Below, piece by piece: positions 741 to 32,307 of a stretch of DNA of 46,595 nucleotides. The position numbers were made by a program, and so were the translations under genes. The first letter of the stretch is position 1. Every line of letters begins with the position of its first letter. Location of the stretch: assembly GCA_004124475.1 (NCBI GenBank), contig SCKK01000027.1:1-46595 (forward strand). Reading direction: 5' to 3'. The notes under the pieces are model-generated. The model saw nothing but the letters and a program-made list of their open reading frames with translations, searched no databases and had not been told where the DNA came from. Source of the DNA: Fidelibacterota bacterium. GTDB taxonomy: Bacteria > Fidelibacterota > Marinisomatia > Marinisomatales > SCKK01.

Positions 741-3587
741 ATGTTTCAGACTCTATTCTATGGTCTATTTGTATTGATGTTCAATAGCTGTTCTGTGCCA
801 CAGCCAGTAGCGGTTGCGCTACCCACACTCTCCGGACTGGACTTGGATCAGCCCCTTCCCATAGATCCCAAGGTTAAGATAGGGACACTTGAGAATGGCA
901 TTCGCTACTATATCCGGGTAAACCAGAAGCCAGAAAAGAGAGCAGAATTACGTTTGGTGGTCAATGCCGGTTCCGTGTTAGAAGAAGATGACCAACAGGG
1001 ATTAGCCCACTTTGTTGAACACATGGGTTTTAACGGAACGAAGCATTTTCCTAAACAAGATCTGGTGGATTATTTAGAGTCTATCGGGATGCGGTTTGGC
1101 CCCGATTTGAACGCCTATACGGGCTTTGATGAAACCGTCTATATGCTCAAAGTTCCCACAGATAGTGCGGCAATGGTGGAAAAGGGGTTTCAGGTTCTTG
1201 CGGATTGGGCTTATGGAATTAGTTTTGAGGATGGGGAGATTGAGAAGGAACGGGGTGTGGTTATTGAGGAGTGGAGACTGGGACAAGGGGCAGAAACACG
1301 AATGAGAGACATACAGTTTCCTATCCTGTTCAAAAATTCTCGCTACGCGGTGAGACTCCCCATCGGTAAGAAGGCGGTTCTCGATACGTTCCGATATGAT
1401 AGGGTTAAGCAGTTTTATAAGGATTGGTATCGACCCGACCTCATGGCAGTAATTGCTGTGGGAGACTTTGATCCAGAATGGATTGAAAACCTTATACACA
1501 TGAATTTTAATTCCATTTCGTCACCTGATAAAATTAAACCAAGAACTATTTTCCCTGTTCCTGATCATGAAGAGACACTCTTTGCCATTGCAACCGATCC
1601 GGAGGCGACCGGTACAAGGGTGGGGGTTTATTATAAGCAGGAATTACAGCCGGAGCAAACAGTTGAAGATTATAAGCGAGAAATGGTGGAAGGACTGTAC
1701 AATAGCATGCTCAATGATAGGCTTGATGAATTGACAAAGAAACCAGATTCCCCTTTTCTATATGGATTCTCTTATCAAGGGCGGTTCATTCGATCAAAAA
1801 ATGTTTATGTACTTGGTGCAGGCGTTCAAGAAAATGGCATTGAAAAAGGGTTAGAAGCATTACTGATTGAAGCAGAACGTGTCGCTAAATTTGGCTTTAC
1901 TCCATCGGAACTGAATCGCAAGAAGAAGGAAACTTTAAGGCATCTTGAGCAGGCTTACGAAGAACGAGATAAAACCGTCTCTCGACGATTTGCAAGCGAA
2001 TATGTTAGTCACTACCTATCTAACGAACCCATTCCTGGAATTGAATTTGAGATAGAATTATACAGAAAATATCTTCCGGGTGTTCAACTGACTGATGTCA
2101 ACAGTTTGGCAAGGGAATGGGTCACAGATCAAAATAGGGTAATAATGGTAAACAGTCCTGACAAGACCGGGCTTAAAATTCCGAGTAAAGCTGATTTGCT
2201 GGTAGTGTTTGATACCATAGCGGGAAAAGAAATTACGCCGTATGAGGATTTTTTGCCTTCTGTACCCCTTGTTGAGAGGATTCCCAAGGTGGTACCGATT
2301 GTCTCAGAGAATCGAATCGATACGCTTAATGTTACACTATGGGAATTGGAGAATGGTGTTAGAGTCTTTCTAAAACCGACAGACTTCAAAAATGATGAAA
2401 TTATTTTCTCTGCTCATAGTCCTGGTGGTCACTCATTGGCACCGGATTCGGATTATGTTTCAGCCATGACAGCCGCAAGATTGATTAATGAAAGTGGAGT
2501 TGGCGTATTCAACCTAATTGAATTGGAAAAATTATTGGCTGATAAAATTGTAAGAGTGTCACCGTGGATTGGGTCATTACAGGAAGGGTTTCATGGTTCC
2601 GCATCACCACAAGACATGGAAACAATGTTTCAGCTCATTTATCTCTATTTTACAGCGTCAAGAGAAGATAGTGCAGCCTATTTAGCCTACAAAAGTAGAA
2701 TGGAAGGGTTTCTTGAAAATCGGAGCGCACGACCGGAAACTGCCTACCGAGATACCATTCAGGTTACAATGGCACGGTACCATCCACGGGAACGACCGTG
2801 GTCTGTCGAATTGTTGGCAGAATTAGATTTAGAAACATCCTTTGCCTTCTATCAAGATAGATTTTCAGATGCCAGTGATTTTACTTTCTTCTTCGTGGGG
2901 AATTTTGAATTGGAGGAGATTAAACCATGGGTACAAACTTATCTTGGTTCTCTCCCCTCTATTCATCGGCAGGAGACTGGGAACGATGTGGGAATCGAGC
3001 CGCCGGTGGGTGTTATTGAAAAATCGGTGATGAAGGGAATAGAGCCTAAAAGCCTGAGCAAAATTATTTTTACCGGATCTTTTGAGTGGGATCGTCAGAA
3101 CAGATATGATCTAAGTTCCATGGTACACATTCTTCGAATTAAGCTCAGAGAAGTGATGCGTGAAGATTTGAGTGGGACGTATTTTGTTTCTGTCCGAGAA
3201 GCTACCTCGCATTTCCCAGATGAGGAATATCAGATTTCCGTATCGTTTGGTTGTGATCCAGGGCGAGTTAAGGAACTTACTGAAGTAGTATTTAGTCAGA
3301 TCGATAGCTTAAAATCAGTCGGAACAACTGAAAAATATCTTGAGAAAGTAAAGGAAATACAGCGTCGGGAAAGAGAAGTCAATCTCAAGGAGAATCGCTT
3401 CTGGCTCAGTTCGCTAAGATTTCATGATTATCATGGAGAAGATATGGCGAATATTTTGACGTTTGATGGATTCGTGAATAACTTAACACTTGAAGCAATT
3501 CAGCTGGCTGCGCAGCGATATTTGAATACAAGTAATTATGTACAAGTATCGCTTTATCCGGAGGAGGATATCTCGCAATTTGAGTGA
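741..3587 (+). CDS. Secreted M16 family zinc metallopeptidase (lipoprotein)
   Basis: Insulinase/pitrilysin-type peptidase of 948 residues. I chose the ATG at 741 because it begins a lipoprotein signal peptide (hydrophobic stretch ending FNSC, about residue 15). An in-frame GTG at 498 would add 81 residues of no visible character. The inverted zinc motif HFVEH is at residues 90-94 and the distal ligand glutamate fits E170 in the KERGVVIEEW stretch, giving an intact active N-terminal half. The C-terminal half (about residue 530 on) looks like the usual inactive M16 repeat. By family it cleaves peptides, probably at the cell envelope. It stands alone, 79 bp before phhB, with no obvious ribosome binding site. 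Confidence 0.9.
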   Translation: MFQTLFYGLFVLMFNSCSVPQPVAVALPTLSGLDLDQPLPIDPKVKIGTLENGIRYYIRVNQKPEKRAELRLVVNAGSVLEEDDQQGLAHFVEHMGFNGTKHFPKQDLVDYLESIGMRFGPDLNAYTGFDETVYMLKVPTDSAAMVEKGFQVLADWAYGISFEDGEIEKERGVVIEEWRLGQGAETRMRDIQFPILFKNSRYAVRLPIGKKAVLDTFRYDRVKQFYKDWYRPDLMAVIAVGDFDPEWIENLIHMNFNSISSPDKIKPRTIFPVPDHEETLFAIATDPEATGTRVGVYYKQELQPEQTVEDYKREMVEGLYNSMLNDRLDELTKKPDSPFLYGFSYQGRFIRSKNVYVLGAGVQENGIEKGLEALLIEAERVAKFGFTPSELNRKKKETLRHLEQAYEERDKTVSRRFASEYVSHYLSNEPIPGIEFEIELYRKYLPGVQLTDVNSLAREWVTDQNRVIMVNSPDKTGLKIPSKADLLVVFDTIAGKEITPYEDFLPSVPLVERIPKVVPIVSENRIDTLNVTLWELENGVRVFLKPTDFKNDEIIFSAHSPGGHSLAPDSDYVSAMTAARLINESGVGVFNLIELEKLLADKIVRVSPWIGSLQEGFHGSASPQDMETMFQLIYLYFTASREDSAAYLAYKSRMEGFLENRSARPETAYRDTIQVTMARYHPRERPWSVELLAELDLETSFAFYQDRFSDASDFTFFFVGNFELEEIKPWVQTYLGSLPSIHRQETGNDVGIEPPVGVIEKSVMKGIEPKSLSKIIFTGSFEWDRQNRYDLSSMVHILRIKLREVMREDLSGTYFVSVREATSHFPDEEYQISVSFGCDPGRVKELTEVVFSQIDSLKSVGTTEKYLEKVKEIQRREREVNLKENRFWLSSLRFHDYHGEDMANILTFDGFVNNLTLEAIQLAAQRYLNTSNYVQVSLYPEEDISQFE

Positions 3588-3666
3588 TTCACAATCGATT
3601 TTCTTTCATTCGTTCTTTTGAAAACTTTGGACTAAGTTATAGAATCAAATCGGCGAGTCTTAAGGA

Positions 3667-4507: not shown

Positions 4508-4578
4508 CCACTACTCCTACGCAGGTCAAGAAGGTCACAATGGACTCTCCCAAAGGGCTCCGTCAGCTGACGGACGGG
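4508..4578 (+). repeat. Composite intergenic repeat, copy 1
   Basis: 71 bp that align without gaps to 24546-24616 with roughly ten mismatches, including the shared inverted core CAGCTGACGGACGGG. Both copies precede genes for exported proteins (TonB receptor here, M28 peptidase there). Copy 1 continues into a CTGTCTGCCGACAGGCAGG palindrome. Confidence 0.65.
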
Positions 4579-11414: not shown

Positions 11415-14400
11415 ATGTGGCATAGAATGCTAACACTGTTTATAGTTTTTGCCGGGTTGGTATATGGTCAGCAAAGCCGCATTGAAGCGGGAGCACAACA
11501 AACCGCTCAGTTTTCACCAGTAACTATTACACTGCCAGACGGTACAATAAAGGAATTGATACGTTGTGGAACCATTGATGAGGCATTGCCGGATATTCCT
11601 AGAGCGCCTGAGGATATTGAGCAATGGAAAACGGAAAACTTACACCTTCTAGAGAGGACTCTTGATATTCCTGTAGCATTTCACGTGATCACAGCAGCTG
11701 ATGGAACCACTGGTGATGTATCCGACCAACAAATCTATAATCAGATAGACACACTCACTACTGCCTATGCAGCTAATGGGCTATCATTTTCACTGCTAAG
11801 CATTGATCGCACGGCAAATGATGACTGGTTTTACAGCGACAATGAGTCTGCATATAAAGCGGCTCTTGCTGTCGACCCTGAACATACATTGAATATTTAT
11901 ACAACTACAGCCAGCGGTTATTTAGGCTATGCTTATTTCCCGTGGTCTTGGTCTGAAGACAATTATATGCATGGGGTTGTCCTGAACTACATTTCTCTTC
12001 CCGGTGGTATTTATCCTTACGATGAGGGGGATACAGGCACACACGAGGTGGGTCACTATTTAGGGCTTTATCATACCTTCGATGGAGGATGCACAACGCC
12101 CGGAGACTATGTGGATGATACCCCTCAGCAGCATGACGGTAATAATATTTTTAACTGTAATGAAACTTTGGATACATGCCCAAGCGATCCTGGAAACGAT
12201 CCGGTTCATAATTACATGAACTACACAGATGATCCCTGCTTATTCGAATTCACTTTAGGCCAGTTTGATAGAGTAAATTGGGCACTGTCCACTTATAAGC
12301 CGAGCCTTGGAAGTGGAGCGGTACTTACTATTGTTATTAATGAAGTTGATGCTGATCAAACTGGCACAGATAGTGCAGAATTCATCGAATTATATGATGG
12401 CGGGACAGGCAATACATCATTAGATGGATATGTTCTGGTACTCTTTAATGGGTCAGATGATGCTTCATATGGTGGTGCAATTGATCTTGATGGTTATTCC
12501 ACAGACGCTGACGGCTATTTTGTAGTGGGAAGCGCTAATGTTGCCAATGTAGACTTGATAGCATTTACAACCAATGGAATCCAGAATGGTGCTGATGCGG
12601 TAGCTTTATATTCTGGATATAACGATACAGACTTTCCTGGGGATACTCCAGTGACACTAACAAATTTAATAGACGCACTTGTTTACGATACCGATGACTC
12701 TGACGATTCTGGTTTACTTGTACTACTAAATAGCGGAGAACCGCAAATTAATGAAAATGGTAATGGCAATAAAGTTACTGAATCAAACCAAAGAAGGCCT
12801 GATGGTAGTGGAGGAGCAAGAAATACTAGTACATATATACAAGCAAGTCCTACCCCAGGAGCCACCAATAACATTCCATTTTCAATAGTCAATATTTTTT
12901 CTTTAAGCGATACCGAAACTGATGTTAAATACTCTGATAACCTGGTTTCTGTTGATGCAGCTGATTTTACAGTATTGGGAACTACTGGTATCTCCGTATT
13001 AACTGCAGCAATAGATGTTACTGATGCATCTTTAGTCCATTTAACTACTTCAGGAATCACTGCAGATATAGTTCTCGATACATTAATCGATGCGTCCCTT
13101 CCGGATACTATTGAATTTTATGCAGGAATTACTTCGATAGCTCTCACAAACACCAATAATCCTGGTGGTACAATTGATAATGTACATACGGCAACTTACC
13201 GGGGAATTGTTTCTGCAAATGACAATTATAACAATGTTTGGGTAAGTGATAGTACCGGTGAATATAATGGTGTTTTGATATTTGATTACAGTTTTGACGG
13301 CTTGGTTGCTGTGGGTGATGAAATTCTTATTACAGCCGTAAGAAACGTCAATAATAATCTTACCGAGCTAAAGAACCCCTCGCTGATTAGCACGGTATCA
13401 ACGGGCAATGAGCCTTATGCAGCTACTGTAATACCCGGCTCCGATATCGCCGAAACCCTTAGTGCCGACACTAATCCCGGTGAAAAGTGGGAAGGGCAGC
13501 TTGTAAAAATTGATAGTGCCTTTGTTGATAGTTCCGGCGATTATTTTTATCGATGCACGGATGATGGAGGTGCTACCTATTTTTATGTAGGCGACAATGT
13601 CGATTTCCAATTTGGTAGTATCTCTATGACTATTGGTTCTACCTATAATATAGTGGGTGTGGTTGATTTTGATAATGGTAAATACAGGATTAACCCCCGG
13701 GATGCGAATGATGTTGACACGGCGCTTTTGGGTAAGAGTGTATTGATTAATGAAGTTGATGCTGATCAAACTGGCACAGATAGTGAAGAATTCATCGAAT
13801 TGTATGATGGCGGGATAGGCAATACATCATTAGATGGATATGTTCTGGTACTCTTTAATGGGTCAGATGATGCTTCATATGGTGGTGCAATTGATCTTGA
13901 TGGTTATTCCACAGACGCTGATGGCTATTTTGTAGTGGGGAGCGCTAATGTTGCCAATGTAGACTTGGTAGCATTTACAACCAATCCTATCCAGAATGGT
14001 GCTGATGCGGTAGCTTTATATTCTGGATATAACGATACAGACTTTCCTGGGGATACTCCAGTGACACTAACAAATTTAATAGACGCACTTGTTTACGATA
14101 CCGATGACTCTGACGATTCTGGTTTACTTGTACTACTAAATAGCGGAGAACCGCAAATTAATGAAAATGGTAATGGCAATAAAGTTACTGAATCAAACCA
14201 AAGAAGGCCTGATGGTAGTGGAGGAGCAAGAAATACTAGTACATATATACAAGCAAGTCCTACCCCAGGAGCCACCAATAACATTCCATTTTCAATAGTC
14301 AATATTTTTTCTTTAAGCGATACCGAAACTGATGTTAAATACTCTGATAACCTGGTTTCTGTTGATGCAGCTGATTTTACAGTATTGGGAACTACTGGTA

Positions 14401-16085
14401 TCTCCGTATTAACTGCAGAAATAGATGTTACTGATGCATCTTTAGTCCATTTAACTACTTCAGGAATCACTGCAGATATAGTTCTCGATACATTAATCGA
14501 TGCATCCCTTCCGGATACTATTGAATTTTATGCAGGAATTACTTCGATAGCTCTCACAAACACCAATAATCCTGGCGGTACAATTGATAATGTACATACG
14601 GCAACTTACCGGGGAATTGTTTCTGCAAACGACAATTATAACAATGTTTGGGTAAGTGATAGTACTGGTGAATATAATGGTGTTTTGATATTTGATTACA
14701 GTTTTGACGGCTTGGTTGCTGTGGGTGATGAAATTCTTATTACAGCCGTAAGAAACGTCAATAATAATCTTACCGAGCTAAAAAATCCTTCGCTGATCAG
14801 TACGATATCAACGGGCAATGAGCCTTATGCAGCTACTGTAATACCCGGTTCCGATATTGATGAAACCCTTAGTGCCGACACTAATCCCGGTGAAAAGTGG
14901 GAAGGGCAGCTTGTAAAAATTGATAGTGCCTTTGTTGATAGTTCCGGTGATTATTTTTATCGATGCACGGATGATGGAGGTACCACCTATTTTTATGTAG
15001 GTGACAATGTCGATTTCCAATTTGGTAGTATCTCTATGACTATTGGTTCTACCTATAATATAGTGGGTGTGGTTGATTTCGATAATGGTAAATACAGGAT
15101 TAACCCCCGGGATGCGAATGATGTTGATGGCTTAATTACAGTAGTGAATCCACTCTCGGATATATCGGTTGATGAAGATTCCCCTGATACAACTCTTGGA
15201 GATCTGAATACAGTATTTTATTACCCTGGTGGTACATTAACTTTTAGCCACACAAACTCAGATACCACGCTGGTAGAAGTTATAGTTATAGGTGATACGG
15301 TATCTTTGAGTTTTTACCCCGATGCAAACGGGGATGCTGAACTGGTCTTTACCGCGACAAGCACCTCAGGAGACTCAATTTCAGATACGGTTATTGTCAC
15401 TGTTTTACCAGTAAACGATGCACCCCAATCTTTTGACTTGGTAGGTCCTGTTAATGACACGTACATTGAAATTACACCCGATAATTTAAACGAAGTTCTC
15501 ACATTTTCCTGGGGAGTCTCTATTGACATAGATGGGGATTCTATTGTTTACAGTCTGTTAGGGACAGACGGTCTTACTTTCCTCTCAGTAGATACTGTAA
15601 CGGAAACATCTATTGTGTGGTTTTATGAAGACCTTGAAGCTGCCATCGATTCCATCGATGTGGCAACAGGTACTTGGATGATAATCGCCAGTGATGATGA
15701 GTTGAACACAGAAGCTGGTAATGGTCCGTTTACATTAACAATTGACGCCGCGGCTTTGAGTGTAGACAAAGTTGAACTTATGCCAGATTTTTTTGCTCTA
15801 CACCCGAACTACCCGAACCCTTTCAACCCGGTGACGACCATTGCTTACGATATTCCTGAAGCAGCGGATGTCAGGATAGATATCTATGACATCTTAGGTC
15901 AAAAGGTACGGACATTGGTGAATAGTATGCACGAGGCAGCTTTCCATAAGGTAGTTTGGAATAGCAGGGATGACTACGGTAAGTCTGTACCGAGCGGGAT
16001 GTACATTTACCGTATCACCGCAACAGACCCATCCTCAGGTAAAACGAATTTCACTAAGGCTCGTAAGCTTGTCATGATTAAATAG
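11415..16085 (+). CDS. Secreted M43 (pappalysin/cytophagalysin) metalloprotease with lamin-tail repeats and T9SS-type sorting domain
   Basis: 1556 residues. A signal peptide (1-18, ending VYG) is followed by an M43 zinc protease domain with HEVGHYLGLYH (about 213-223), a cysteine-bearing GDYVDDTPQQ segment and the Met-turn HNYMNYTDDPC. Then come two nearly identical units of about 460 residues, each a lamin-tail domain (INEVDADQTG..., GADAVALY) plus a beta-rich, OB-like part. After that is a cadherin-like segment with VNDAP, and finally a C-terminal sorting domain beginning YPNPFNP and ending ARKLVMIK. It is probably exported and cell-surface attached or released. The last 280 bases and the terminator are identical to those of the DNRLRE gene. 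Confidence 0.9.
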   Translation: MWHRMLTLFIVFAGLVYGQQSRIEAGAQQTAQFSPVTITLPDGTIKELIRCGTIDEALPDIPRAPEDIEQWKTENLHLLERTLDIPVAFHVITAADGTTGDVSDQQIYNQIDTLTTAYAANGLSFSLLSIDRTANDDWFYSDNESAYKAALAVDPEHTLNIYTTTASGYLGYAYFPWSWSEDNYMHGVVLNYISLPGGIYPYDEGDTGTHEVGHYLGLYHTFDGGCTTPGDYVDDTPQQHDGNNIFNCNETLDTCPSDPGNDPVHNYMNYTDDPCLFEFTLGQFDRVNWALSTYKPSLGSGAVLTIVINEVDADQTGTDSAEFIELYDGGTGNTSLDGYVLVLFNGSDDASYGGAIDLDGYSTDADGYFVVGSANVANVDLIAFTTNGIQNGADAVALYSGYNDTDFPGDTPVTLTNLIDALVYDTDDSDDSGLLVLLNSGEPQINENGNGNKVTESNQRRPDGSGGARNTSTYIQASPTPGATNNIPFSIVNIFSLSDTETDVKYSDNLVSVDAADFTVLGTTGISVLTAAIDVTDASLVHLTTSGITADIVLDTLIDASLPDTIEFYAGITSIALTNTNNPGGTIDNVHTATYRGIVSANDNYNNVWVSDSTGEYNGVLIFDYSFDGLVAVGDEILITAVRNVNNNLTELKNPSLISTVSTGNEPYAATVIPGSDIAETLSADTNPGEKWEGQLVKIDSAFVDSSGDYFYRCTDDGGATYFYVGDNVDFQFGSISMTIGSTYNIVGVVDFDNGKYRINPRDANDVDTALLGKSVLINEVDADQTGTDSEEFIELYDGGIGNTSLDGYVLVLFNGSDDASYGGAIDLDGYSTDADGYFVVGSANVANVDLVAFTTNPIQNGADAVALYSGYNDTDFPGDTPVTLTNLIDALVYDTDDSDDSGLLVLLNSGEPQINENGNGNKVTESNQRRPDGSGGARNTSTYIQASPTPGATNNIPFSIVNIFSLSDTETDVKYSDNLVSVDAADFTVLGTTGISVLTAEIDVTDASLVHLTTSGITADIVLDTLIDASLPDTIEFYAGITSIALTNTNNPGGTIDNVHTATYRGIVSANDNYNNVWVSDSTGEYNGVLIFDYSFDGLVAVGDEILITAVRNVNNNLTELKNPSLISTISTGNEPYAATVIPGSDIDETLSADTNPGEKWEGQLVKIDSAFVDSSGDYFYRCTDDGGTTYFYVGDNVDFQFGSISMTIGSTYNIVGVVDFDNGKYRINPRDANDVDGLITVVNPLSDISVDEDSPDTTLGDLNTVFYYPGGTLTFSHTNSDTTLVEVIVIGDTVSLSFYPDANGDAELVFTATSTSGDSISDTVIVTVLPVNDAPQSFDLVGPVNDTYIEITPDNLNEVLTFSWGVSIDIDGDSIVYSLLGTDGLTFLSVDTVTETSIVWFYEDLEAAIDSIDVATGTWMIIASDDELNTEAGNGPFTLTIDAAALSVDKVELMPDFFALHPNYPNPFNPVTTIAYDIPEAADVRIDIYDILGQKVRTLVNSMHEAAFHKVVWNSRDDYGKSVPSGMYIYRITATDPSSGKTNFTKARKLVMIK
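12336..13717 (+). repeat. 1382-bp tandem unit, copy 1
   Basis: Repeats at 13746-15127 (offset 1410 bp, 28-bp linker) with only scattered single-base differences. It encodes one lamin-tail domain plus the following beta domain of the M43 protein. Confidence 0.95.
13746..15127 (+). repeat. 1382-bp tandem unit, copy 2
   Basis: Second copy of the unit at 12336-13717. Differences are mostly single substitutions, some changing residues (for example Thr to Ile near 13815 and Asn-Gly to Asn-Pro near 13985). The reading frame is preserved. Confidence 0.95.
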
Positions 16086-16166
16086 GAGTGGGTAATCATT
16101 CAGGAACTGAAACTGTTCTTTGAGATAAAAAATAGGGGCACAATTAATGGCCCCTATTTTTTACAA
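15806..16166 (+). repeat. Sorting-domain plus terminator cassette, copy 1
   Basis: 361 bp that appear base-for-base identical to 19969-20329 (offset 4163). It covers the coding sequence from the NYPNPFNP motif to the stop, the 3' untranslated part and the terminator hairpin. Confidence 0.93.
16127..16162 (+). terminator. Rho-independent terminator of the M43 gene
   Basis: The stem TAGGGGC/GCCCCTA, extended by an A-run pairing with a T-run, ends in TTTTTT. It lies 42 bp after the stop and is identical to the one at 20290-20325. Confidence 0.88.
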
Positions 16167-16246
16167 CCATGACACGGAAGGGACATGGTACCCACCCAAT
16201 AGAGTTAAAGAAGCCTTTTGGAATATGAATGGAAAGATGGAGGAGA

Positions 16247-17385
16247 ATGAAGAGATTGTCCCATATTGGAGTCAAGCAGTCTGCCAGAACAATACAAAAG
16301 ATCTGTCGTGAAGAAGGGTTAGGACGCAAGAAAAAGAGTAAACGTATCAAGCAACGTGATTTGCGTGCTATGGAAGGAAGCGAACTTTAAACTGCTTCGA
16401 TATTGGGTTGTGGATACGAAGGACTTTATAGATGTACCTTATTACGTTGAACGTATTTATAACGGTGGCTTTCCCCGTTATTTATATTAAGCCAGAGATG
16501 TTCGTACCAATGTACTTTTCAGCGCCTATGCTTTTGAACAGTCTAATGTGAACAGTACCTTGTTTATCCGGCGTTTATTTACCCATTTAGCATCATTGGG
16601 TATTCTTCTGAATGAGGTATCAATCCAGTCCGGTAACGGATCAGAGTTTCCACGAAACGGACTGGATTTAACTCAGCCAAGCGCATTTGAAAAAGCCATT
16701 ATGGATGTTAAGGTAAATTATATTCGAATCCCGCCAGGGGCGAAGAACCATCAGAGTGATATAGAGCGGGCAAATGGTCTTATTGAATATGAACTGTTAG
16801 AGATTGAACGATGGAGAACAAAAAGCTAACTGGTTGGGCTTTCTATCCCGACGTGTCAGCAATTTTATTAGGACATATTATTATACTTTTCATCATGCAT
16901 GTTTGAAATTATTCGAGAGGGGAACAAAGGGATTTAATGAAAAAAACCATAACCTATTATGACGGTTACAAGTATTGAAAAGTTCATATTTTTATCTCAA
17001 AACACATTTTCTGCCACAAATCGTGGGACGTAACCGCCATAATAAAATATACTATTAATCAGATATTCACGACGTGATAGTTCATTATTATGGTCGATTT
17101 AGTATAATAAACCATGCTTAGAAAATCCCTGACGTGTCGGGAGGAGTATTATTTTAATCGGTTAAGACCAACTCTTACCAGAAAAACAGAACACCTTACC
17201 AACGCATGAAACATGCGGGCATTCAATCCCAAACCGCTGAAAACGCCTGCCTCTGGACGGTAACTATTTTGGATGATCCTAAGCTGAAAAGAATTAACTT
17301 CAATTTACCCTGGCTGCCTGCCCGCAGGAGGCGGGGATACCATGTCTGTAAAGACGTCAATCCGCGCGATTATTTCACTTGACAA
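16247..17385 (+). pseudogene. Ruined integrase-core (DDE) transposase
   Basis: Fragments in changing frames: an HTH-like part (16247-16390, RTIQKICREEGLGRKKKSKR), then VVDTKDF with the first acidic residue (about 16405). Next, after stops, comes a rve-like core (16548-16829) with IQSGNGSEF, where the expected Asp of S-D-N-G is Gly, and QSDIERANG with the last Glu region. A further stretch to about 17385 (LDDPKLKRINFNLP, GYHVCKDVN) reads like the C-terminal tail. Several stops and a lost catalytic Asp mean it is dead. No clear terminal inverted repeats were found. It lies between the two sorting-domain cassettes. Confidence 0.75.
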
Positions 17386-17408
17386 CTCTTTATGTAGGAG
17401 TCTATATT
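17379..17408 (+). promoter_or_regulatory. Candidate promoter TTGACA-N18-TATATT
   Basis: Hexamers at 17379-17384 and 17403-17408 lie 45 bp before the CHRD gene start, with hexamers and spacing identical to the candidate at 11240-11269. Confidence 0.5.
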
Positions 17409-17452
17409 AATTGATAATGTCAGTCATTAATAACTAACAATAGGATATCACT

Positions 17453-19180
17453 ATGAATAAAATGTTACTATTATTCGCAGCAATAGCCTGCGTTGCAATC
17501 CCTAATGTCGTTCTCGGGCAGTCTGGGGTGGCACACTTCGGAGCCCAGCTTACAGGCGGCCAGGAAAATCCGGCTGTAACTACTGCTGCCACAGGCACCG
17601 GTACCTTTTCACTTACCGACGCGGGCCTTGCTTATGACATCACATTTGAGGGAATAACACTAACCGCCTCTCACTTCCACTTAGGTGCAACTGGAGTTAA
17701 CGGCGGCGTAGTTAGAGCCATAGACTTCGCAGGCGCCAACACCGTCTCGGGCGTCTGGGCATCCGGTGACTCTCAGCCTCTTACGGATGGTCTCGTAGCG
17801 GAACTCATTGCGGGAAACATCTATGTCAACCTGCACACGAGTGCCAATCCCGGCGGGGAAATACGAGGGCAAGTAACGCTATCAGGAGGCATAGGCCTCT
17901 CTGCAAACCTTACAGGTGCCCAGGAAAATCCAGCTGTAACTACTGCTGCCACAGGCACCGGTACCTTTTCACTTACCGACGCGGGCCTTGCTTATAACAT
18001 CACATTTGAGGGAATAACACTAACCGCCTCTCACTTCCACTTAGGTGCAATTGGAGTTAACGGCGGCGTAGTTAGAGCCATAGACTTCGCAGGCGCCAAC
18101 ACCGTCTCGGGCGTCTGGGCATCCGGTGACTCTCAGCCTCTTACGGATAGTCTCGTAGCGGAACTCATTGCGGGAAACATCTACGTCAACCTGCACACGG
18201 CTGCCTATGGCGGCGGGGAAATACGAGGACAGCTCCTACCGGGAATCATAGAAGTTCCTATAATCAATGCTCCAAAAATTTCCAATATTGAAGATGTTCC
18301 TGATGATCAGGGCGGGTGGATTTATCTTAGATGGCTTGCAAGTGAACAAGATGCGCTTGGTAATATTACTCAATATGGAATATCGGAACTAAATCTGGCT
18401 AATGAGTGGGTTTCATTAGGTAGTGTACCTTCCACACAATTCGGTGAGTATATTTTTCCTGCACATACATTTCAAGATTCTTCTGATCAAGGGATTTATT
18501 GGAGTAAATTCCAAGTCTCTGCCCATACAATTGATCCTGAAGTATTTTTTTCATCAGAAATTGACTCTGGCTTTTCAGTTGATAACTTGTCACCGGCCGT
18601 ACCTTCTGGATTATTGGCTTTAATAACCGAGCAGGATGCCGTACAATTAACTTGGGATGCGCCTGTTGATGCTGATTTTGAATATTTCAGGATATACAGG
18701 AGTAATGAGTCAGGGTTTGATCCATCAGGAATAGAGCCTTATTCTGAAAGCATCGGCACTTTGTTTATCGATACTGAAGTTAGTATTGACCAGATTTATT
18801 ATTACATACTTTCAGCAGTCGATTCTCACGGAAATGAGAGTGGGTTCTCCGAAGAGGTTAGTGCGACAATAGTAGGAATAGAGGGAGGAGAAATAATTCC
18901 TTCTGATTACGTTCTTTATGACGCATATCCTAACCCCTTCAACCCGAGTACGACTATCAAATATGGCCTTCCATATCAATCAGATGCAACATTGATAATT
19001 TACAACCTCATGGGTCAGGAAATAGTTAGGTGGGACGAGTATAATCTCACAGCGGGATATTACGAAAAAACGTGGAATGGCACTAACAAATTCGGTGTTC
19101 CTGTTGTGAGTGGAGTATACTTGTACAAGTTTATTACTGGTGATTTTGTGGTTACGAGGAAGATGCTTTTATTGAAGTAA
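17453..19180 (+). CDS. Secreted protein with two CHRD domains, fibronectin-like part and sorting domain
   Basis: 575 residues. A signal peptide (1-22, ending VLG) precedes two CHRD domains (about 25-143 and 145-263), each with ASHFHLGA and GGEIRGQ motifs. They are followed by a beta-sandwich resembling fibronectin type III (about 385-475) and a C-terminal sorting domain beginning YPNPFNPSTTIKYGL. This sorting domain differs from the identical pair in the neighbouring genes. CHRD domains are of unknown biochemical role outside chordin. The DNA of the CHRD part is visibly richer in G+C than the rest of the gene. The ATG is supported by a promoter-like sequence 45 bp upstream. Confidence 0.88.
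   Translation: MNKMLLLFAAIACVAIPNVVLGQSGVAHFGAQLTGGQENPAVTTAATGTGTFSLTDAGLAYDITFEGITLTASHFHLGATGVNGGVVRAIDFAGANTVSGVWASGDSQPLTDGLVAELIAGNIYVNLHTSANPGGEIRGQVTLSGGIGLSANLTGAQENPAVTTAATGTGTFSLTDAGLAYNITFEGITLTASHFHLGAIGVNGGVVRAIDFAGANTVSGVWASGDSQPLTDSLVAELIAGNIYVNLHTAAYGGGEIRGQLLPGIIEVPIINAPKISNIEDVPDDQGGWIYLRWLASEQDALGNITQYGISELNLANEWVSLGSVPSTQFGEYIFPAHTFQDSSDQGIYWSKFQVSAHTIDPEVFFSSEIDSGFSVDNLSPAVPSGLLALITEQDAVQLTWDAPVDADFEYFRIYRSNESGFDPSGIEPYSESIGTLFIDTEVSIDQIYYYILSAVDSHGNESGFSEEVSATIVGIEGGEIIPSDYVLYDAYPNPFNPSTTIKYGLPYQSDATLIIYNLMGQEIVRWDEYNLTAGYYEKTWNGTNKFGVPVVSGVYLYKFITGDFVVTRKMLLLK
17550..17870 (+). repeat. CHRD-coding tandem repeat, copy 1
   Basis: About 320 bp that recur at 17910-18230 (period 360 bp, 120 codons) with very few differences. 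Each encodes one CHRD domain. Confidence 0.93.
17910..18230 (+). repeat. CHRD-coding tandem repeat, copy 2
   Basis: Second near-identical CHRD unit. Changes are concentrated at the 3' edge (TSANPGG in copy 1 against TAAYGGG in copy 2). Confidence 0.93.
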
Positions 19181-19261
19181 CTACTCCCTCAACTTTACTT
19201 CGAAATAGCGCGCTAAGATAAGGATGGGTATACTGTTATCAGGATAATTATATCTATCCCT

Positions 19262-20248
19262 TTGTTACTGCTTGCTTTAAATAGCAACATCAATGCACAA
19301 ACTGAAGTAGTAATACAAGCAAACAAGGATAACACTTTATATGAAAGCAATACAGGCGCGTTGAGCAATGGTAAAGGCGCTCATTTCTTTGTAGGTAAAA
19401 CCGCCGTCGGTTCGATTAGACGCGGGCTTCTTGCGTTTGATATCGCAGGAAATATTGAGAGCGGAGTATTGATAGACAGTGTCGTATTAATATTAAGTAT
19501 GTCTAAAACGCGCACAGCAACTTCAAGAATAATTGCCCTTCACAAAATATTATCAAGTTGGGGTGAAGGCGAATCCAATGCACCCGGAAATGAAGGCGCC
19601 GGAACGGCAGCTGAGATTGGAGATGCCACATGGATACACACTTTTTATGATTCCCTCTTTTGGACAAACAACGGAGGCGATTTTTCAGATGTCATAAATG
19701 CTACAGCATCGGTAGGAGATACGAATTCTTATAGGTGGAACTCTACTTCGGAGTTGGTTGCCGATGTTCAATCCTGGTTAGACTCACCTTCAACCAATTT
19801 TGGCTGGATTCTTGTAGGAGACGAAAATGAAAGCGCAACTGCAAAACGGTTTGATTCCAAAGAAAACAGTACTGAGTCCAATAGGCCTATACTCAGAGTA
19901 TTTTATATGCCTGTTGTTGCTGTAGCCACACTGAGTAATGAACTTCCCATTCGATACGATCTTGAACAGAACTACCCGAACCCTTTCAACCCGGTGACGA
20001 CCATTGCTTACGATATTCCTGAAGCAGCGGATGTCAGGATAGATATCTATGACATCTTAGGTCAAAAGGTACGGACATTGGTGAATAGTATGCACGAGGC
20101 AGCTTTCCATAAGGTAGTTTGGAATAGCAGGGATGACTACGGTAAGTCTGTACCGAGCGGGATGTACATTTACCGTATCACCGCAACAGACCCATCCTCA
20201 GGTAAAACGAATTTCACTAAGGCTCGTAAGCTTGTCATGATTAAATAG
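19262..20248 (+). CDS. Secreted DNRLRE-domain protein with T9SS-type sorting domain
   Basis: 328 residues from a TTG start. The body (about 15-220) is a DNRLRE-type adhesion module (ANKDNTLYE..., RRGLLAFDIAG, VQSWLDSPSTNFGWIL), followed by the YPNPFNP sorting domain shared exactly with the M43 protein. The TTG start gives a signal peptide without a basic residue. The frame is open upstream and would supply Arg and a run of Ile, but no ATG, GTG or TTG is seen there; an ATG at 19225 is in another frame. The true start is therefore uncertain and the 5' end may be damaged. Confidence 0.78.
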   Translation: MLLLALNSNINAQTEVVIQANKDNTLYESNTGALSNGKGAHFFVGKTAVGSIRRGLLAFDIAGNIESGVLIDSVVLILSMSKTRTATSRIIALHKILSSWGEGESNAPGNEGAGTAAEIGDATWIHTFYDSLFWTNNGGDFSDVINATASVGDTNSYRWNSTSELVADVQSWLDSPSTNFGWILVGDENESATAKRFDSKENSTESNRPILRVFYMPVVAVATLSNELPIRYDLEQNYPNPFNPVTTIAYDIPEAADVRIDIYDILGQKVRTLVNSMHEAAFHKVVWNSRDDYGKSVPSGMYIYRITATDPSSGKTNFTKARKLVMIK

Positions 20249-20329
20249 GAGTGGGTAATCATTCAGGAACTGAAACTGTTCTTTGAGATAAAAAATAGGG
20301 GCACAATTAATGGCCCCTATTTTTTACAA
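19969..20329 (+). repeat. Sorting-domain plus terminator cassette, copy 2
   Basis: Identical, as far as I can read, to 15806-16166. Upstream and downstream of this block the two loci share nothing obvious. Confidence 0.93.
20290..20325 (+). terminator. Rho-independent terminator of the DNRLRE gene
   Basis: Same stem TAGGGGC/GCCCCTA with T-run as at 16127-16162, 42 bp after the stop. Confidence 0.88.
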
Positions 20330-20408
20330 ATTACTTGATTTATGTTTGTTCTATCTTCATATTCAGATAATAACGTGATAATAATCTGCACCTTTGGAGG
20401 GATAAACT

Positions 20409-20804
20409 ATGCATAAAGGTAGTGTTAATAAAGTAATATTAGTTGGACATCTTGGAGGCGACCCGGAGAGTCGTTATATGCCATCCGGTGACGCTGTGGT
20501 TAATTTTACTCTTGCCACAAATGAGAGTTGGCGCGATAGTGATGGAGAGATTAAAGAACGTACAGAATGGCATCGTTGTGTGATGTTTGGTAAGAGAGCA
20601 GAAACAGCCAGTAAATTGCTAAAGAAAGGAACGTTGATCTATTTTGAGGGAAAACTTAGAACACGCTCCTGGGATGACAAAGACGGAGTCAAACGGTACA
20701 CCACGGAAATTGTTGGAGATGCATTTACTATGCTTGGACGGAAAAGCGGTAGTGAAGAGACAAGCGAAGATACCGGAGAAACAGAGGATGATCTTCCCTT
20801 CTAA
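20409..20804 (+). CDS. ssb: Single-stranded DNA-binding protein
   Basis: 131 residues: an OB fold (about 5-108, [46 protein letters not shown]), then a short acidic linker and the tail DDLPF, which recruits partner proteins in this family. A ribosome binding site GGAGG lies 11 bases before the ATG. The linker is short. It is followed by 218 bp without a gene that carry a CTGTCT/AGACAG hairpin near 20880. Confidence 0.95.
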
Positions 20805-21022
20805 ACGAATATAATTTTCAGCTGATATATCCCCCTTTATTCTTGTAGTATAAGTCAGGTATTAGTGTCCCAATATCACTGTCTGTCGATAGACAGAAAC
20901 GCAGCGGTTATCGGAGTATTATATTGAGGAATCATTTATAACATTAATAGTTTTAAGTATATTTAACAAAACACCTAAATATATATTGGATTTATATAAT
21001 TTTATTTATAATATCAACTATT

Positions 21023-21487
21023 ATGTTAGATAGCAAAGACAATATAATTCTTGATCTTCTTCAAAAAAATGGTCGAATGACGGCAAAGGATATAGCAGAG
21101 CGAGTAGAATTATCCGTTCCAGCAGTGGCGGAGAGAATTAAAAAATTAGTAGAAGAAAAAATCATCAGGGAATTTCGAGCGATAGTTGATTCCAAGAAGT
21201 TAGGATACGATGTAACAGCTTTTATTCTTTTGGTTATGGCATCGTCGGAACGTTATGAAGCAATGATAAATCATGTTAAAAAATCCGACGAGATTTTAGA
21301 GTGTCATTCCATTACGGGAGAAGGGTCGCATATGTTGAAAGTCAGAATAAAAAACACTTCTTCATTGGAAATATTACTTCGGAAAATACAGTCATGGGAA
21401 GATGTGATTCGAACTCAAACCATGATCGTCATGTCGACGTTTAAAGAAGAGACTTTCCTCCTCCTTCGGAAGAAAAAACAGTTGTAA
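21023..21487 (+). CDS. Lrp/AsnC family transcriptional regulator
   Basis: 154 residues. An N-terminal winged helix-turn-helix (about 3-55: DNIILDLLQKNGRMTAKDIA, then VPAVAERIKKL) is followed by a RAM ligand domain (about 65-145, with HSITGEGSHMLKVRI). Lrp-type proteins form octamers or dimers and sense amino acids. It is the first gene before an FAD oxidase and glutamine synthetase, so control of nitrogen or glutamate metabolism is plausible but not shown. Confidence 0.92.
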   Translation: MLDSKDNIILDLLQKNGRMTAKDIAERVELSVPAVAERIKKLVEEKIIREFRAIVDSKKLGYDVTAFILLVMASSERYEAMINHVKKSDEILECHSITGEGSHMLKVRIKNTSSLEILLRKIQSWEDVIRTQTMIVMSTFKEETFLLLRKKKQL

Positions 21488-21697
21488 AGAGTTATTATAG
21501 TTGGTTGCAGGTAGAAAATAAACAAGTATCAAGTGACAAGTAAACAAGTGACTCCCATTTATATAGTGGTTGTTATATCCTCAGATTAATGCATAGACAC
21601 TGAGTCTTGGATTTTGTCCCGAAACTTCGGGGTGAAACTTAATTTCTTCCCGAAAAATTCTGTTGAGAATGTAAAAACAAATTAGAGAAAGTATTTG

Positions 21698-24273: not shown

Positions 24274-24767
24274 CCTTTCAAGTAGCAGAGAGTCTCGTTT
24301 TCCGGAACTTTCATTATTAGGTTCCCCACAGTATAATCCCTCAGAGACAGGTATATAATGGCGCTAACGTCAAGGAGAAATGCCTGTTTGCCGCCTGTCT
24401 GTCGTAACGATAGAGCAGACAGGTAGCAACAGCACAGGCAGGGAGTATTGTCCCGAAGAGGGACTCTCCCCTGGAGAAGTGATGCTCTGTAGGAGCCTCC
24501 TTTGGAGGAGAAATGAATATGTTGACGATAAACACAACTAAAATTCCACCACTCCTCCACAGGTCACGAAGGTCATAATGGACCCTCCCAAAGGGATCCG
24601 CCAGCTGACGGACGGGACATCACTCCATATTTTTCTATTCCCAACCGTGACTGAGACATTACCACGCAGTATACTTTCTGCTTGCCTGTTTCATAATCTT
24701 CCTGCAATATTTCCAATCCTAATGAGGTATTCCAAGCCCAGTTAATATTCCCTACATAGGAGGTGCT
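24274..24767. other. Intergenic region rich in repeats
   Basis: It holds a GCCTGTCTG...CAGACAGG palindrome near 24393-24423, part of the composite repeat in inverted orientation (around 24470-24515, GTGATGCTCTGTAGGAGCC), and the direct copy at 24546-24616. No gene is supported. A minus-strand frame of about 47 codons at 24640-24755 is open but unassigned. Confidence 0.6.
24546..24616 (+). repeat. Composite intergenic repeat, copy 2
   Basis: Aligns with 4508-4578 over 71 bases without gaps. It lies 152 bp before an exported M28 peptidase. Confidence 0.65.
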
Positions 24768-28718: not shown

Positions 28719-31700
28719 ATGGATATAATATATCAAGCGATTTTCAAATATGATAAGAAGAATAAACTTTCGCTCACCCGAATATTGCCGGATGGTGATC
28801 GAGATACGAGCCCGGTTAATTTGGCTGATATTCACCGGATTGAAAAAAAATGCCGGGATTTTCGATGGAATAAATCAACGGATTTATCCTGTAAAATCGG
28901 TAAGGAACTGTATGACCTTCTCAACGGTGATCGGCAAACATTAACGCGGGCACTGAAAGAAGCAGGTGACCACGGTGAAAATCTTCACCTCTATGTTAGA
29001 CCCGAAGGTCCCATATCCGATCTACCCTTTGAGTTACTTTACCAAACAGATTTCCTTGTTCCTTCCGATATACATCTTGTTCGCCGGGTTTCGGATTGGG
29101 GACACAAAAGAAGTCTTCAGCCTGAGAAACGTTCTCTTAGGGTCTTGTTCATTGCCTGCTCTCCGGAAGGTTTATCCCCTATTTTGCAATTTGAAAAAGA
29201 AGAGGACACAATCTACAAAATCACTAAGGATCTTCCGGTTGAGATAGATGTGGAAGATACGGGTTCGCTGGAAGGGCTTGGTGAGTGTCTTGCACAAGAT
29301 GTATATGATGTCGTTCATCTTTCAGGTCACGCCGATATTAACAATGGAAAACCATTTTTCTGGATGGAAGATGAAGAAGGTTCACCGGTACAGGTTACGC
29401 CCTCTGAGCTTTGGGAAAAACTTAATTTAAACCTGCCGCGTCTTCTGTTTCTTTCAGGTTGCAAGACTGGACAGACTCCCCGGCACGCCGCCGCAGTATC
29501 TTTTGCACATCAACTCGTAGCCAATCATAGCTCCACCGTGCTGGGTTGGGGATTGCCCGTGTCCGACAGCGGGGCAACCCTCGCAACAAAGCATATATAT
29601 TTTGATCTAAGCCGAGGGGAAGATATTCTCTCCGCTGTGCTCTCGGCTCGCAGGAAACTTTTCAGGTATCACCGGGAAGATTGGTCGCTACTGCGCCTGT
29701 TTTCTGACGGCACGCCATTGACCATACCCCTTGTGGAAAGAGGGCAAAGAAGGAGACCGAAGCCGAGAGATCTTCAACATACCTATTTACACAATAGCCA
29801 GGTAAAAATACTCAAGGAAGGTTTTGTCGGCAGGCGAAAGCAAATCCAGCGTGGACTCAGATATTTGAAGAAGGATGAGGAAAAAATTGGTCTGCTTTTG
29901 CACGGAACCGGTGGGCTGGGCAAGAGTTGTCTGGCGGGAAAACTGTGCGAAAGGTTAAAAGACCATACCTTAATCATTGTACACGGTGAGCTTAACGCAG
30001 TCACTTTTGGTGAAGCTCTAAAAGATGGTTTTGTGCGAGGGCGGGACGAACAAGGCTTGAAGATATTGAAGGAAACCGTTGAGTTGCCCGATAAGATTCA
30101 ACGTCTTTGCTCATCGTCATTTCAGGAAAGAAACTACCTCATCCTGCTTGATGATTTTGAGCGGAATTTGTCAGGGGTGGAGGAAGGGAAGCCGGAAATT
30201 TCTCCCGAAGCAGTAGACATTCTTGAACCACTACTCAGGTATTTGCCTTACAGCGGAAATATGAGCCAGCTTATTATTACCAGCCGTTACTCTTTTCCCC
30301 TTACACTTGGAGGAGTAAATCTTGTTGAGCGCAACATGGAGTCCATTTGTTTGACAAGCTTCCGGGGTGCTGACGAGTGGAAAAAGGTTAATGAACTTAA
30401 CGAGATTGCCAACTATCCAGAACCCGCTATCAGGTTACAGCTTATCGATGCCGGTCGAGGAAATCCCCGACTTATGGAGGCACTAAATACCCTGTTAAAA
30501 GAAGCGAAGGAACTTGACCTGAAATCCCTCCTGGTAACGGTTAAAGACAAGCAGGAAGAATTTGTCCAGGACCTGATTCTAAGAAAGATCTTAGAAAGCC
30601 AGCCGGAATCGTTTCAAATGGTCATGAGACATTCTGCCGTTTTCCGCCTGCCCGTTCTTAAGGAAGGGATAAAATTGGTTTGCAAGGACATAAGGAATTG
30701 GGAACAGCACATAAACCAAGCGGTTCGCCTGAGCCTGATGGAGCAGGGCCGTACCAGCAAGAAGGAGGCTCTTTATTGGGTGACTCCCCTAATAAGTAAG
30801 GGTATTTTCGAAGAATTGGAAAAAGAGGATAGAAAAAGTTGCCACCAGTCTTCTGTCTCATATTATCAGAGAGTTCTTTCTGAAGTTTCGGACTATTCAC
30901 CTATTATAGCCATCGAGTTGATCGAACACGCTTTGAAAGCAGGGATGGATGGGGATGCAATTGAAGAAGGAGGTAAGGTGCTACCCTATTTGCGACACTC
31001 TCTCGCATACAAAGAAGCCCTATCATGCGGGGAATCTATCCTCGGGCAGATTTCTCAACGAAAAAGGGAAGAGAAATTTGCAAAATTTTTATTCGAACTT
31101 GGGTGGATAAATTACGACCTTGGAGATGCCAGGAAGGCGATCGAGTATTATGAGCAAGCGCTCTCAATCGGTAAGGAGGTCTATGGAGAAAGACATCCCA
31201 GTGTGGCAAGAATGCTCAACAACCTGGGATCAGCCTGGAGCGACATTGGAGAAACAAAGAAGGCGATCAAGTATTATGAGCAGGCGCTCTCAATTGGTAA
31301 GGAGGTCTATGGAGAAAGACATCCTGATGTGGCAGCAAGGCTCAACAACCTGGGATTGGCCTGGAACGACCTAGGAAAAGCCAAGAAAGCGATAGAGTAT
31401 TATGAGCAGGCGCTCTCAATTGATAAGGAGGTCTATGGAGGAAGACATCCTGATGTGGCAACAATGCTCAACAACCTGGGATCAGCCTGGAGCGAACTTG
31501 GAGAAACAAAGAAAGCGATCAAGTATTATGAGCAGGCGCTCTCAATCGATAGGGAGGTTTATGGAGAAAGACATCCCACTGTGGCAACAAGGCTCAACAA
31601 CCTGGGATTGGGCTGGAACGACCTTGGAGAAACAAAGAAGGCGATCGAGTATTTTGAGCAGGCTCTCTCAATCGTCAGTGAAGTATATGGTGAAAAGCAT

Positions 31701-32261
31701 CCATATGTAGCAGGTACCATAAACAACCTGGGAGGAGCCTGGAGCGACCTTGGAGAAACAAAGAAGGCGATCGAGTATTTTGAGCAGGCGCTCTCAATCG
31801 ATAGGGAGGTTTATGGAGAAAGACATCCCACTGTGGCAACAATGCTCAACAACCTGGGATTGGCCTGGAACGACCTTGGAGAAACAAAGAAGGCGATCGA
31901 GTATTATGAGCAGGCGCTCTCAATTGGTAAGGAGGTTTATGGAGAAAGACATCCCACTGTGGCAACAATGCTCAACAACCTGGGATGGGCCTGGAGCGAC
32001 CTTGGAGAAACAAAGAAGGCGATCGAGTATTATGAGCAGGCACTCTCAATTCATAAGGAGGTCTATGGAGAAAGACATCCTGATGTGGCAACAGACCTCA
32101 ACAACCTGGGAGGGGCCTGGAGCGACCTTGGAGATGTCAGGAAAGCGATAGAACATCTACAGAGAGCGTATGAAATATTTCGGGAGTTTTATGGAGACGA
32201 ACATCCGCATACAAAGAATGCAAAAGCCTGGCTCGATAGTTTGAAAAATACGGGTGAGTGA
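28719..32261 (+). CDS. CHAT protease / NTPase / TPR multidomain protein (STAND-like)
   Basis: 1180 residues from ATG 28719 (an in-frame TTG at 28656 would add 21). Domains: a CHAT caspase-like protease (about 80-340) with catalytic His204 in HLSGHAD and Cys248 in FLSGCKTG. Next is a P-loop NTPase (about 365-640), with Walker A GTGGLGKS 396-403, Walker B YLILLDDFE 474-481 and a sensor-like IITSRYSF. A helical linker follows, then TPRs of the kinesin-light-chain kind: eight 42-residue units (806-1141) plus a partial ninth. STAND proteins of this build sense a ligand with the repeats, oligomerise by ATP and fire the effector; here the effector would be a protease. No signal peptide. It is single-gene, and its protease target is not evident nearby. 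Confidence 0.85.
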   Translation: MDIIYQAIFKYDKKNKLSLTRILPDGDRDTSPVNLADIHRIEKKCRDFRWNKSTDLSCKIGKELYDLLNGDRQTLTRALKEAGDHGENLHLYVRPEGPISDLPFELLYQTDFLVPSDIHLVRRVSDWGHKRSLQPEKRSLRVLFIACSPEGLSPILQFEKEEDTIYKITKDLPVEIDVEDTGSLEGLGECLAQDVYDVVHLSGHADINNGKPFFWMEDEEGSPVQVTPSELWEKLNLNLPRLLFLSGCKTGQTPRHAAAVSFAHQLVANHSSTVLGWGLPVSDSGATLATKHIYFDLSRGEDILSAVLSARRKLFRYHREDWSLLRLFSDGTPLTIPLVERGQRRRPKPRDLQHTYLHNSQVKILKEGFVGRRKQIQRGLRYLKKDEEKIGLLLHGTGGLGKSCLAGKLCERLKDHTLIIVHGELNAVTFGEALKDGFVRGRDEQGLKILKETVELPDKIQRLCSSSFQERNYLILLDDFERNLSGVEEGKPEISPEAVDILEPLLRYLPYSGNMSQLIITSRYSFPLTLGGVNLVERNMESICLTSFRGADEWKKVNELNEIANYPEPAIRLQLIDAGRGNPRLMEALNTLLKEAKELDLKSLLVTVKDKQEEFVQDLILRKILESQPESFQMVMRHSAVFRLPVLKEGIKLVCKDIRNWEQHINQAVRLSLMEQGRTSKKEALYWVTPLISKGIFEELEKEDRKSCHQSSVSYYQRVLSEVSDYSPIIAIELIEHALKAGMDGDAIEEGGKVLPYLRHSLAYKEALSCGESILGQISQRKREEKFAKFLFELGWINYDLGDARKAIEYYEQALSIGKEVYGERHPSVARMLNNLGSAWSDIGETKKAIKYYEQALSIGKEVYGERHPDVAARLNNLGLAWNDLGKAKKAIEYYEQALSIDKEVYGGRHPDVATMLNNLGSAWSELGETKKAIKYYEQALSIDREVYGERHPTVATRLNNLGLGWNDLGETKKAIEYFEQALSIVSEVYGEKHPYVAGTINNLGGAWSDLGETKKAIEYFEQALSIDREVYGERHPTVATMLNNLGLAWNDLGETKKAIEYYEQALSIGKEVYGERHPTVATMLNNLGWAWSDLGETKKAIEYYEQALSIHKEVYGERHPDVATDLNNLGGAWSDLGDVRKAIEHLQRAYEIFREFYGDEHPHTKNAKAWLDSLKNTGE
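31134..32141 (+). repeat. Eight 126-bp tandem repeats coding TPR units
   Basis: Each unit begins KAIEYYEQALSI or a close variant and encodes 42 residues. Units start at 31134, 31260, 31386 and so on to 32016; a diverged ninth begins at 32142. Differences cluster at a few codons: the residues after ALSI, the residue after RHP, and the residues around NNLG. Confidence 0.93.
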
Positions 32262-32307
32262 AAAGATCAAGGACTCATACGGTATGTTTATGCCACACTT
32301 ATAAATC

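Follow-up and report, generated by a model that had tools for sequence, protein, structure and literature searches.

A direct repeat of a type IX sorting domain and terminator on two unrelated genes of a Fidelibacterota bacterium, probably formed by insertion of an imported gene pair at the 3' end of a resident metalloprotease gene

How two unrelated secreted proteins come to end in exactly the same DNA is the question raised by the window analysed here, a stretch of 46,595 nucleotides of contig SCKK01000027.1 from a Fidelibacterota bacterium (assembly GCA_004124475.1, hereafter G000). Upon comparison of the window with itself, positions 15806-16166 and 19969-20329 were found to form a direct repeat of 361 bp, at an offset of 4163 and with 0 mismatches, and the likeness breaks off abruptly at each side, the DNA flanking both copies being unrelated. 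Likewise, the genes bearing the copies are unrelated, one encoding a 1556-aa M43 metalloprotease with LTD domains and the other a 328-aa DNRLRE protein. The features of the locus are the following, in window coordinates:

11415..16085, + strand: M43 (pappalysin-type) metalloprotease gene, also encoding LTD domains and a T9SS sorting domain; the resident gene to which the tail belongs (Pfam PF05572, 6e-18; TIGR04183, 35 bits)
15806..16166, + strand: first copy of the 361-bp repeat, with the sorting domain from NYPNPFNP, the stop codon, the 3' UTR and the terminator (exact self-match and genome blastn)
16126..16163, + strand: Rho-independent terminator hairpin of the first copy (self-inverse match 16126-16163)
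16167..17359, + strand: remnant of an IS481-type insertion element with a degenerate transposase (aligned with copies of the IS in G000 and its sister species G001)
16846..17142, no strand assigned: further element of ~297 bp nested in the IS remnant (matches to G001:C56, C104 and C50 at 88-93%)
17379..17408, + strand: sigma-70-like promoter of the putatively imported pair, TTGACA-18-TATATT, inside the stretch homologous to genomes G196/G197
17453..19180, + strand: putatively imported CHRD-domain gene with two CHRD domains, an FN3-like segment (18235-18925) and its own, different sorting domain (PF07452, 3e-54)
19262..20248, + strand: putatively imported DNRLRE-domain gene carrying the M43 sorting domain (NF033679, 58 bits; 74% aa identity to G197)
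19969..20329, + strand: second copy of the 361-bp repeat (exact self-match)
20289-20326: terminator hairpin in the second repeat copy
20330..20804, + strand: ancestral right flank, a spacer and the ssb gene (contiguous with the tail in G001)

The repeat comprises a 93-codon sorting domain starting at NYPNPFNP, a stop codon, an 81-nt 3' UTR (16086-16166 in the first copy, with a folding energy of -29.4 kcal/mol and a z of -5.3) and a strong hairpin terminator. A blastn search of the whole 3.15-Mb assembly with the repeat returned the two copies at 100% identity (E 6e-188) and no third copy. When the 56 extractable sorting-domain tails of the genome were compared, setting aside trivially overlapping flanks of neighbouring genes, the M43 and DNRLRE tails were the sole pair more than 93% identical over more than 100 bp, which excludes chance as the source of the repeat. 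A preliminary description of this DNA, which had reported one 361-bp sorting domain, stop and terminator on two otherwise different genes, is borne out by the exact match and the unrelated flanks. Its expectation that the borders coincide with the edges of the domain and of the terminator held on the left, where the repeat begins at the conserved start of the sorting domain (NYPNPFNP), that is, at the edge of the best-conserved DNA of this domain, but failed on the right, where the border is fixed by the left end of the IS481-type element and not by the functional edge of the terminator.

The state of the locus before duplication is found in the sister species G001. In this genome the orthologous 3' part of the M43 gene ends in the same tail, present in one copy, and the gene runs straight into ssb, with the IS, CHRD and DNRLRE DNA absent, which makes it an empty site. 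Positions 1334-2404 of the G001 locus align with 15095-16166 of the window at 96.5% identity, and positions 2045-3627 with 19969-21552 at 94.7%, unbroken and with no gap across 20329/20330. Since the locus of G001 is contiguous with a single copy, the joins between M43 and tail and between tail and ssb are both ancestral, and the window exceeds it by 4,163 bp, made up of the IS481-type remnant and the CHRD and DNRLRE genes. Over the 361 bp, 0 differences are found between the two copies of the window and 13 between G000 and G001; the duplication is therefore younger than the split of these genomes, as an older one should show about 13 differences unless homogenised. The same counts contradict an old duplication later lost in G001, unless the copies were recently homogenised, and with one other genome of the genus sampled (G001), insertion and loss are told apart by this zero-divergence argument alone. 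Taken with the exact repeat, the empty site upholds the earlier proposal of an unrelated reading frame taking over the tail and terminator of another gene.

The extra DNA has its counterpart in G196 and G197, of genus g68, labelled as related to the window genome at phylum level only. In both, a CHRD gene is adjacent to a DNRLRE gene in the order seen in the window, and the two genes have T9SS sorting domains of their own. The window is 83% identical to G196 over 17367-18234, and the DNA common to the source-like loci begins at about 17367, a few bases past the right end of the IS, and includes the conserved promoter. DNRLRE is present in 5 of the 245 genomes of the phylum, one of them with a weak 31% match, and is absent from G001 and from the other relatives of the order that were searched. 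Kinship was read from pairwise identities, as the tree had too few rows for support: the DNRLRE part of the window protein is 74% identical in amino acids to that of G197 and 73% to that of G196, while between G194 and G197, two members of one family, the identity of DNRLRE is only 53%. For glutamine synthetase, whose gene also lies in the window, G000 and G197 are 59% identical. The higher identity of DNRLRE (74% vs 59%), its rarity, the same-order pair in g68 and the shared promoter DNA support the hypothesis that the CHRD-DNRLRE pair was imported horizontally from a relative of g68. The real donor is not among the sampled genomes, the closest DNRLRE being 74% identical and not near-identical.

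The FN3-like segment of the CHRD gene is missing from the versions of G196 and G197 and is closest, at 56% aa identity, to a segment on contig C3 of the window genome. The tail of this gene was assessed as a possible second swap; in the tree it falls with G000:C3 and G194 (support 81-90%), and its final codons resemble those of the source. On contig C3 itself (locus L063, 66000-76000), two neighbouring genes, at 2851 and 6773, have FN3 and sorting domain 86% alike over 452 bp, the second gene being a 154-aa fragment.

Just before the imported pair, the IS481-type remnant is recognised by a copy in G001 (contig C110) with an intact 384-aa transposase, in which the HTH, LZ_Tnp_IS481 and rve domains were matched. 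The left end of the remnant lies 0-3 bp from the end of the first repeat copy, the IS tips being located only to about 3 bp. No target-site duplication was detected, the two IS flanks sharing no match of 4 or more bases, and a simple IS481 insertion, which should leave the IS flanked by short target-site repeats, is not what is observed. The nested element of ~297 bp is also dispersed in G001.

The second joint is visible inside the DNRLRE gene. Its identity to G196, measured per 60 bp, is mostly 65-88% up to about 19983 and then falls to 58, 40 and 33%; likeness to the source thus collapses at the NYPNPFNP codons, and from there DNRLRE carries the M43 tail. At this motif the DNA of source and M43 is alike (AACTACCCGAAtCCcTTcAAtCCGGTGACGA in G197, AACTACCCGAACCCTTTCAACCCGGTGACGA in M43), with about 31 of 35 bases in common and a longest exact run of 11. 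Incoming and target DNA are alike at this joint only, the other joint being the IS end. Since both outer joins, with M43 on the left and with ssb on the right, are ancestral, the 361 bp are best read as a target duplication produced by insertion of the imported segment, for which gene conversion or a mobile tag cassette would be less apt descriptions.

We hypothesize, as the probable explanation, a one-sided-homology insertion of the IS and CHRD-DNRLRE segment at the 3' end of the M43 gene. After the split from G001, a segment with the IS481-type remnant and the imported pair would have inserted there, its right joint forming in the ~35-bp DNA that encodes NYPNPFNP(VT), where the incoming DNRLRE and resident M43 sequences resemble each other, and its left joint just past the M43 terminator, at the IS left end or no more than 3 bp from it. 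As the left joint would fall 361 bp downstream of the right one on the target, tail and terminator would be duplicated; M43 would retain its tail, and DNRLRE would lose its own and end in frame with the M43 sorting domain and terminator. A single event may have sufficed, relying on (micro)homology at one side, with a left joint that was illegitimate or assisted by the IS. The motif anchor is short, and the duplication could have arisen via a circular intermediate in several steps. In E. coli, constructs with one-sided homology yielded insertions flanked by duplications of 109-950 bp, which were explained by a single crossover with circular molecules missing part of the homology (PMC3240628).

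The main rival to this single-event insertion is a Campbell-type integration, in which a single crossover at the M43 tail took up a pre-formed circle whose DNRLRE gene already ended in the 361-bp tail. It would give an identical product, 361 bp of perfect homology are ample for RecA, the duplications of 109-950 bp in E. coli (PMC3240628) fit it, and a tandem copy and a 4,163-bp circle would be the only arrangements that the assembly graph allows; the same circle may in fact still form through recombination between the repeats. Nevertheless, an extra earlier event is needed, namely the fusion of DNRLRE to the M43 tail with closure of the circle at the IS, and the inserted segment contains no replication genes, so that we regard this rival as unlikely. 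Less probable by far is a gene conversion, as put forward in the preliminary description, by which the imported pair first stood downstream of M43 with its own tail, later overwritten by that of M43. Two shorter conversion-like tail patches of this genome, described below (L084/L137 and L097/L118), start at or near the same motif and speak for it. However, the tract would have to end exactly at the end of the original insertion and restore the ancestral join of tail and ssb without a scar, when G001 aligns across 20329/20330 gap-free, and past the motif the source DNA is only 30-60% similar, poor homology for a tract of 361 bp. A conversion tract with both borders inside homology is thus not what the locus displays, the joins of tail with M43 and with ssb being ancestral in G001. 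An assembly artefact joining two unrelated loci through the common repeat is the least credible of all: a perfect repeat of 361 bp does exceed usual short-read k-mers, but the two copies have only four neighbours and each consistent pairing would keep the in-frame fusion of DNRLRE and tail, the fusion point is the sorting-domain start in G196/G197, and both outer flanks match G001, so that pure misassembly is unlikely and the worst effect of a short-read misjoin would be a 4,163-bp circle in place of the tandem copy, with the fusion holding either way.

Returning to the favoured insertion, its consequence for DNRLRE depends on the secretion system. The type IX route that had been suggested for both proteins agrees with the profile searches: SprA (747 bits, cut-off 200) and PorU (704 bits, cut-off 420) both exceed their curated cut-offs, on the strength of which we call the predicted T9SS of this genome a true one, and the M43 and DNRLRE proteins score 35.0 and 32.7 bits, respectively, against TIGR04183 (T9SS type A sorting domain; cut-off 23). 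The captured tail is in frame with DNRLRE and presumably works, and the captured terminator could end the imported transcript. As DNRLRE carries its own sorting domain in G196 and G197, the receiving gene was already tagged in the source lineage, and the event is a tag replacement rather than the conversion of any reading frame into an export substrate, as had been imagined. The gene has no ATG or GTG start that would give a full signal peptide; the ATG codons of G197 correspond to ATC and ATA in the window (19200-19300), and the first usual start is a TTG at 19262, which leaves the signal peptide short. The usual start codon of DNRLRE thus seems to be lost.

The idea of a ready-made mobile module, in which tag and terminator travel as a cassette, did not survive the wider search, as the genome holds two copies only and no further pair of this kind was detected among 131 tails on 80 contigs. 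In these tails, which come from other phyla, no further tail swap between unrelated genes was found, nor in the partial tail sets of G001, G194, G196 and G197. The locus is a clear one-off tag swap and not a cassette system. Two nearly identical tails of a Melioribacter MAG (L152) were rejected as a swap, their owners being tandem paralogues and not unrelated genes; these paralogues, at about 2.7-3.65 kb and 7.0-7.94 kb, are 87% alike overall, and at least their last 900 bp, with sorting domain and 3' flank, are 99.9% identical. Within G000, two other tail pairs have short near-identical patches at the motif. In L084 and L137, neighbouring genes 3 kb apart on contig C44, the sorting domains are 92.5% identical over 107 bp, starting exactly at NYPNPFNP; the two are unrelated before the patch and diverged after it, which looks like a small conversion patch. 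The tails of L097 and L118 are 86% identical over 116 bp, in a patch at or near the motif. Based on these two pairs, recombination at NYPNPFNP is suggested to recur on a small scale in this genome. The DNA of the motif is near-invariant, with some 50-75 copies per genome, and it is tempting, if quite doubtful, to regard it as a general landing pad at which foreign or shuffled secreted-protein genes would recombine and gain a resident, working T9SS tag and terminator, in which case the shorter conversion-like patches would be older traces.

Compared with known systems, both genes resemble type A cargo of the T9SS (TIGR04183/Por_Secre_tail), each carrying a scoring domain in a genome that encodes SprA and PorU, but here two unrelated cargo genes have one DNA-identical tail, terminator included. 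As in homology-facilitated illegitimate recombination or a single crossover that leaves flanking duplications (PMC3240628), the inserted foreign DNA resembles the target at one joint and not at the other, and a short piece of the target is duplicated; in contrast to those constructs, the anchor measures only ~35 bp, the other joint is at an IS end, and the event is deduced from one natural genome. C-terminal displacement in Rhs and Vibrio T6SS effector arrays also involves a conserved coding stretch, where imported modules recombine and new gene ends are formed (PMC5361080). In those arrays the effector part is the end that varies and former ends become orphans, whereas in the present locus the secretion tag is the conserved end and the resident gene remains intact. 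In Porphyromonas gingivalis, recombination likewise reshuffles domains of T9SS-exported surface proteins, there adhesin domains among paralogues (PMC5266723), whereas here tag and terminator go to an unrelated imported gene. A literature search on T9SS tag swapping by transfer found nothing direct. The present locus is a recent tag swap caught with the empty site, a source-like locus and both joints visible; it points to the conserved start of the T9SS sorting domain as a possible anchor for recombination, and opens to testing how one secretion tag came to be common to unrelated proteins in these phyla and whether imported cargo must adopt the resident tag for export.

Several other repeats were observed in the window. 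The M43 gene has a recent internal duplication (12336-14045) of an LTD and the following domain, with a unit of 1410 bp and about 97% identity. The two CHRD domains of the imported gene (17549-18208) are a 360-bp duplication, 97% identical; the CHRD gene of G196 has its own, equally recent-looking domain duplication and that of G197 one CHRD domain, which suggests repeated expansion or homogenisation. A dispersed 71-bp element, present at 4508-4578 and 24546-24616 with 89% identity and containing the palindrome CCGTCAGCTGACGG, also has matches in G001. Finally, a CHAT-TPR protein encoded at 30988-32295 contains nine near-identical 126-bp TPR repeats, the inner copies being 82-89% identical, and is a candidate for rapid change in copy number.
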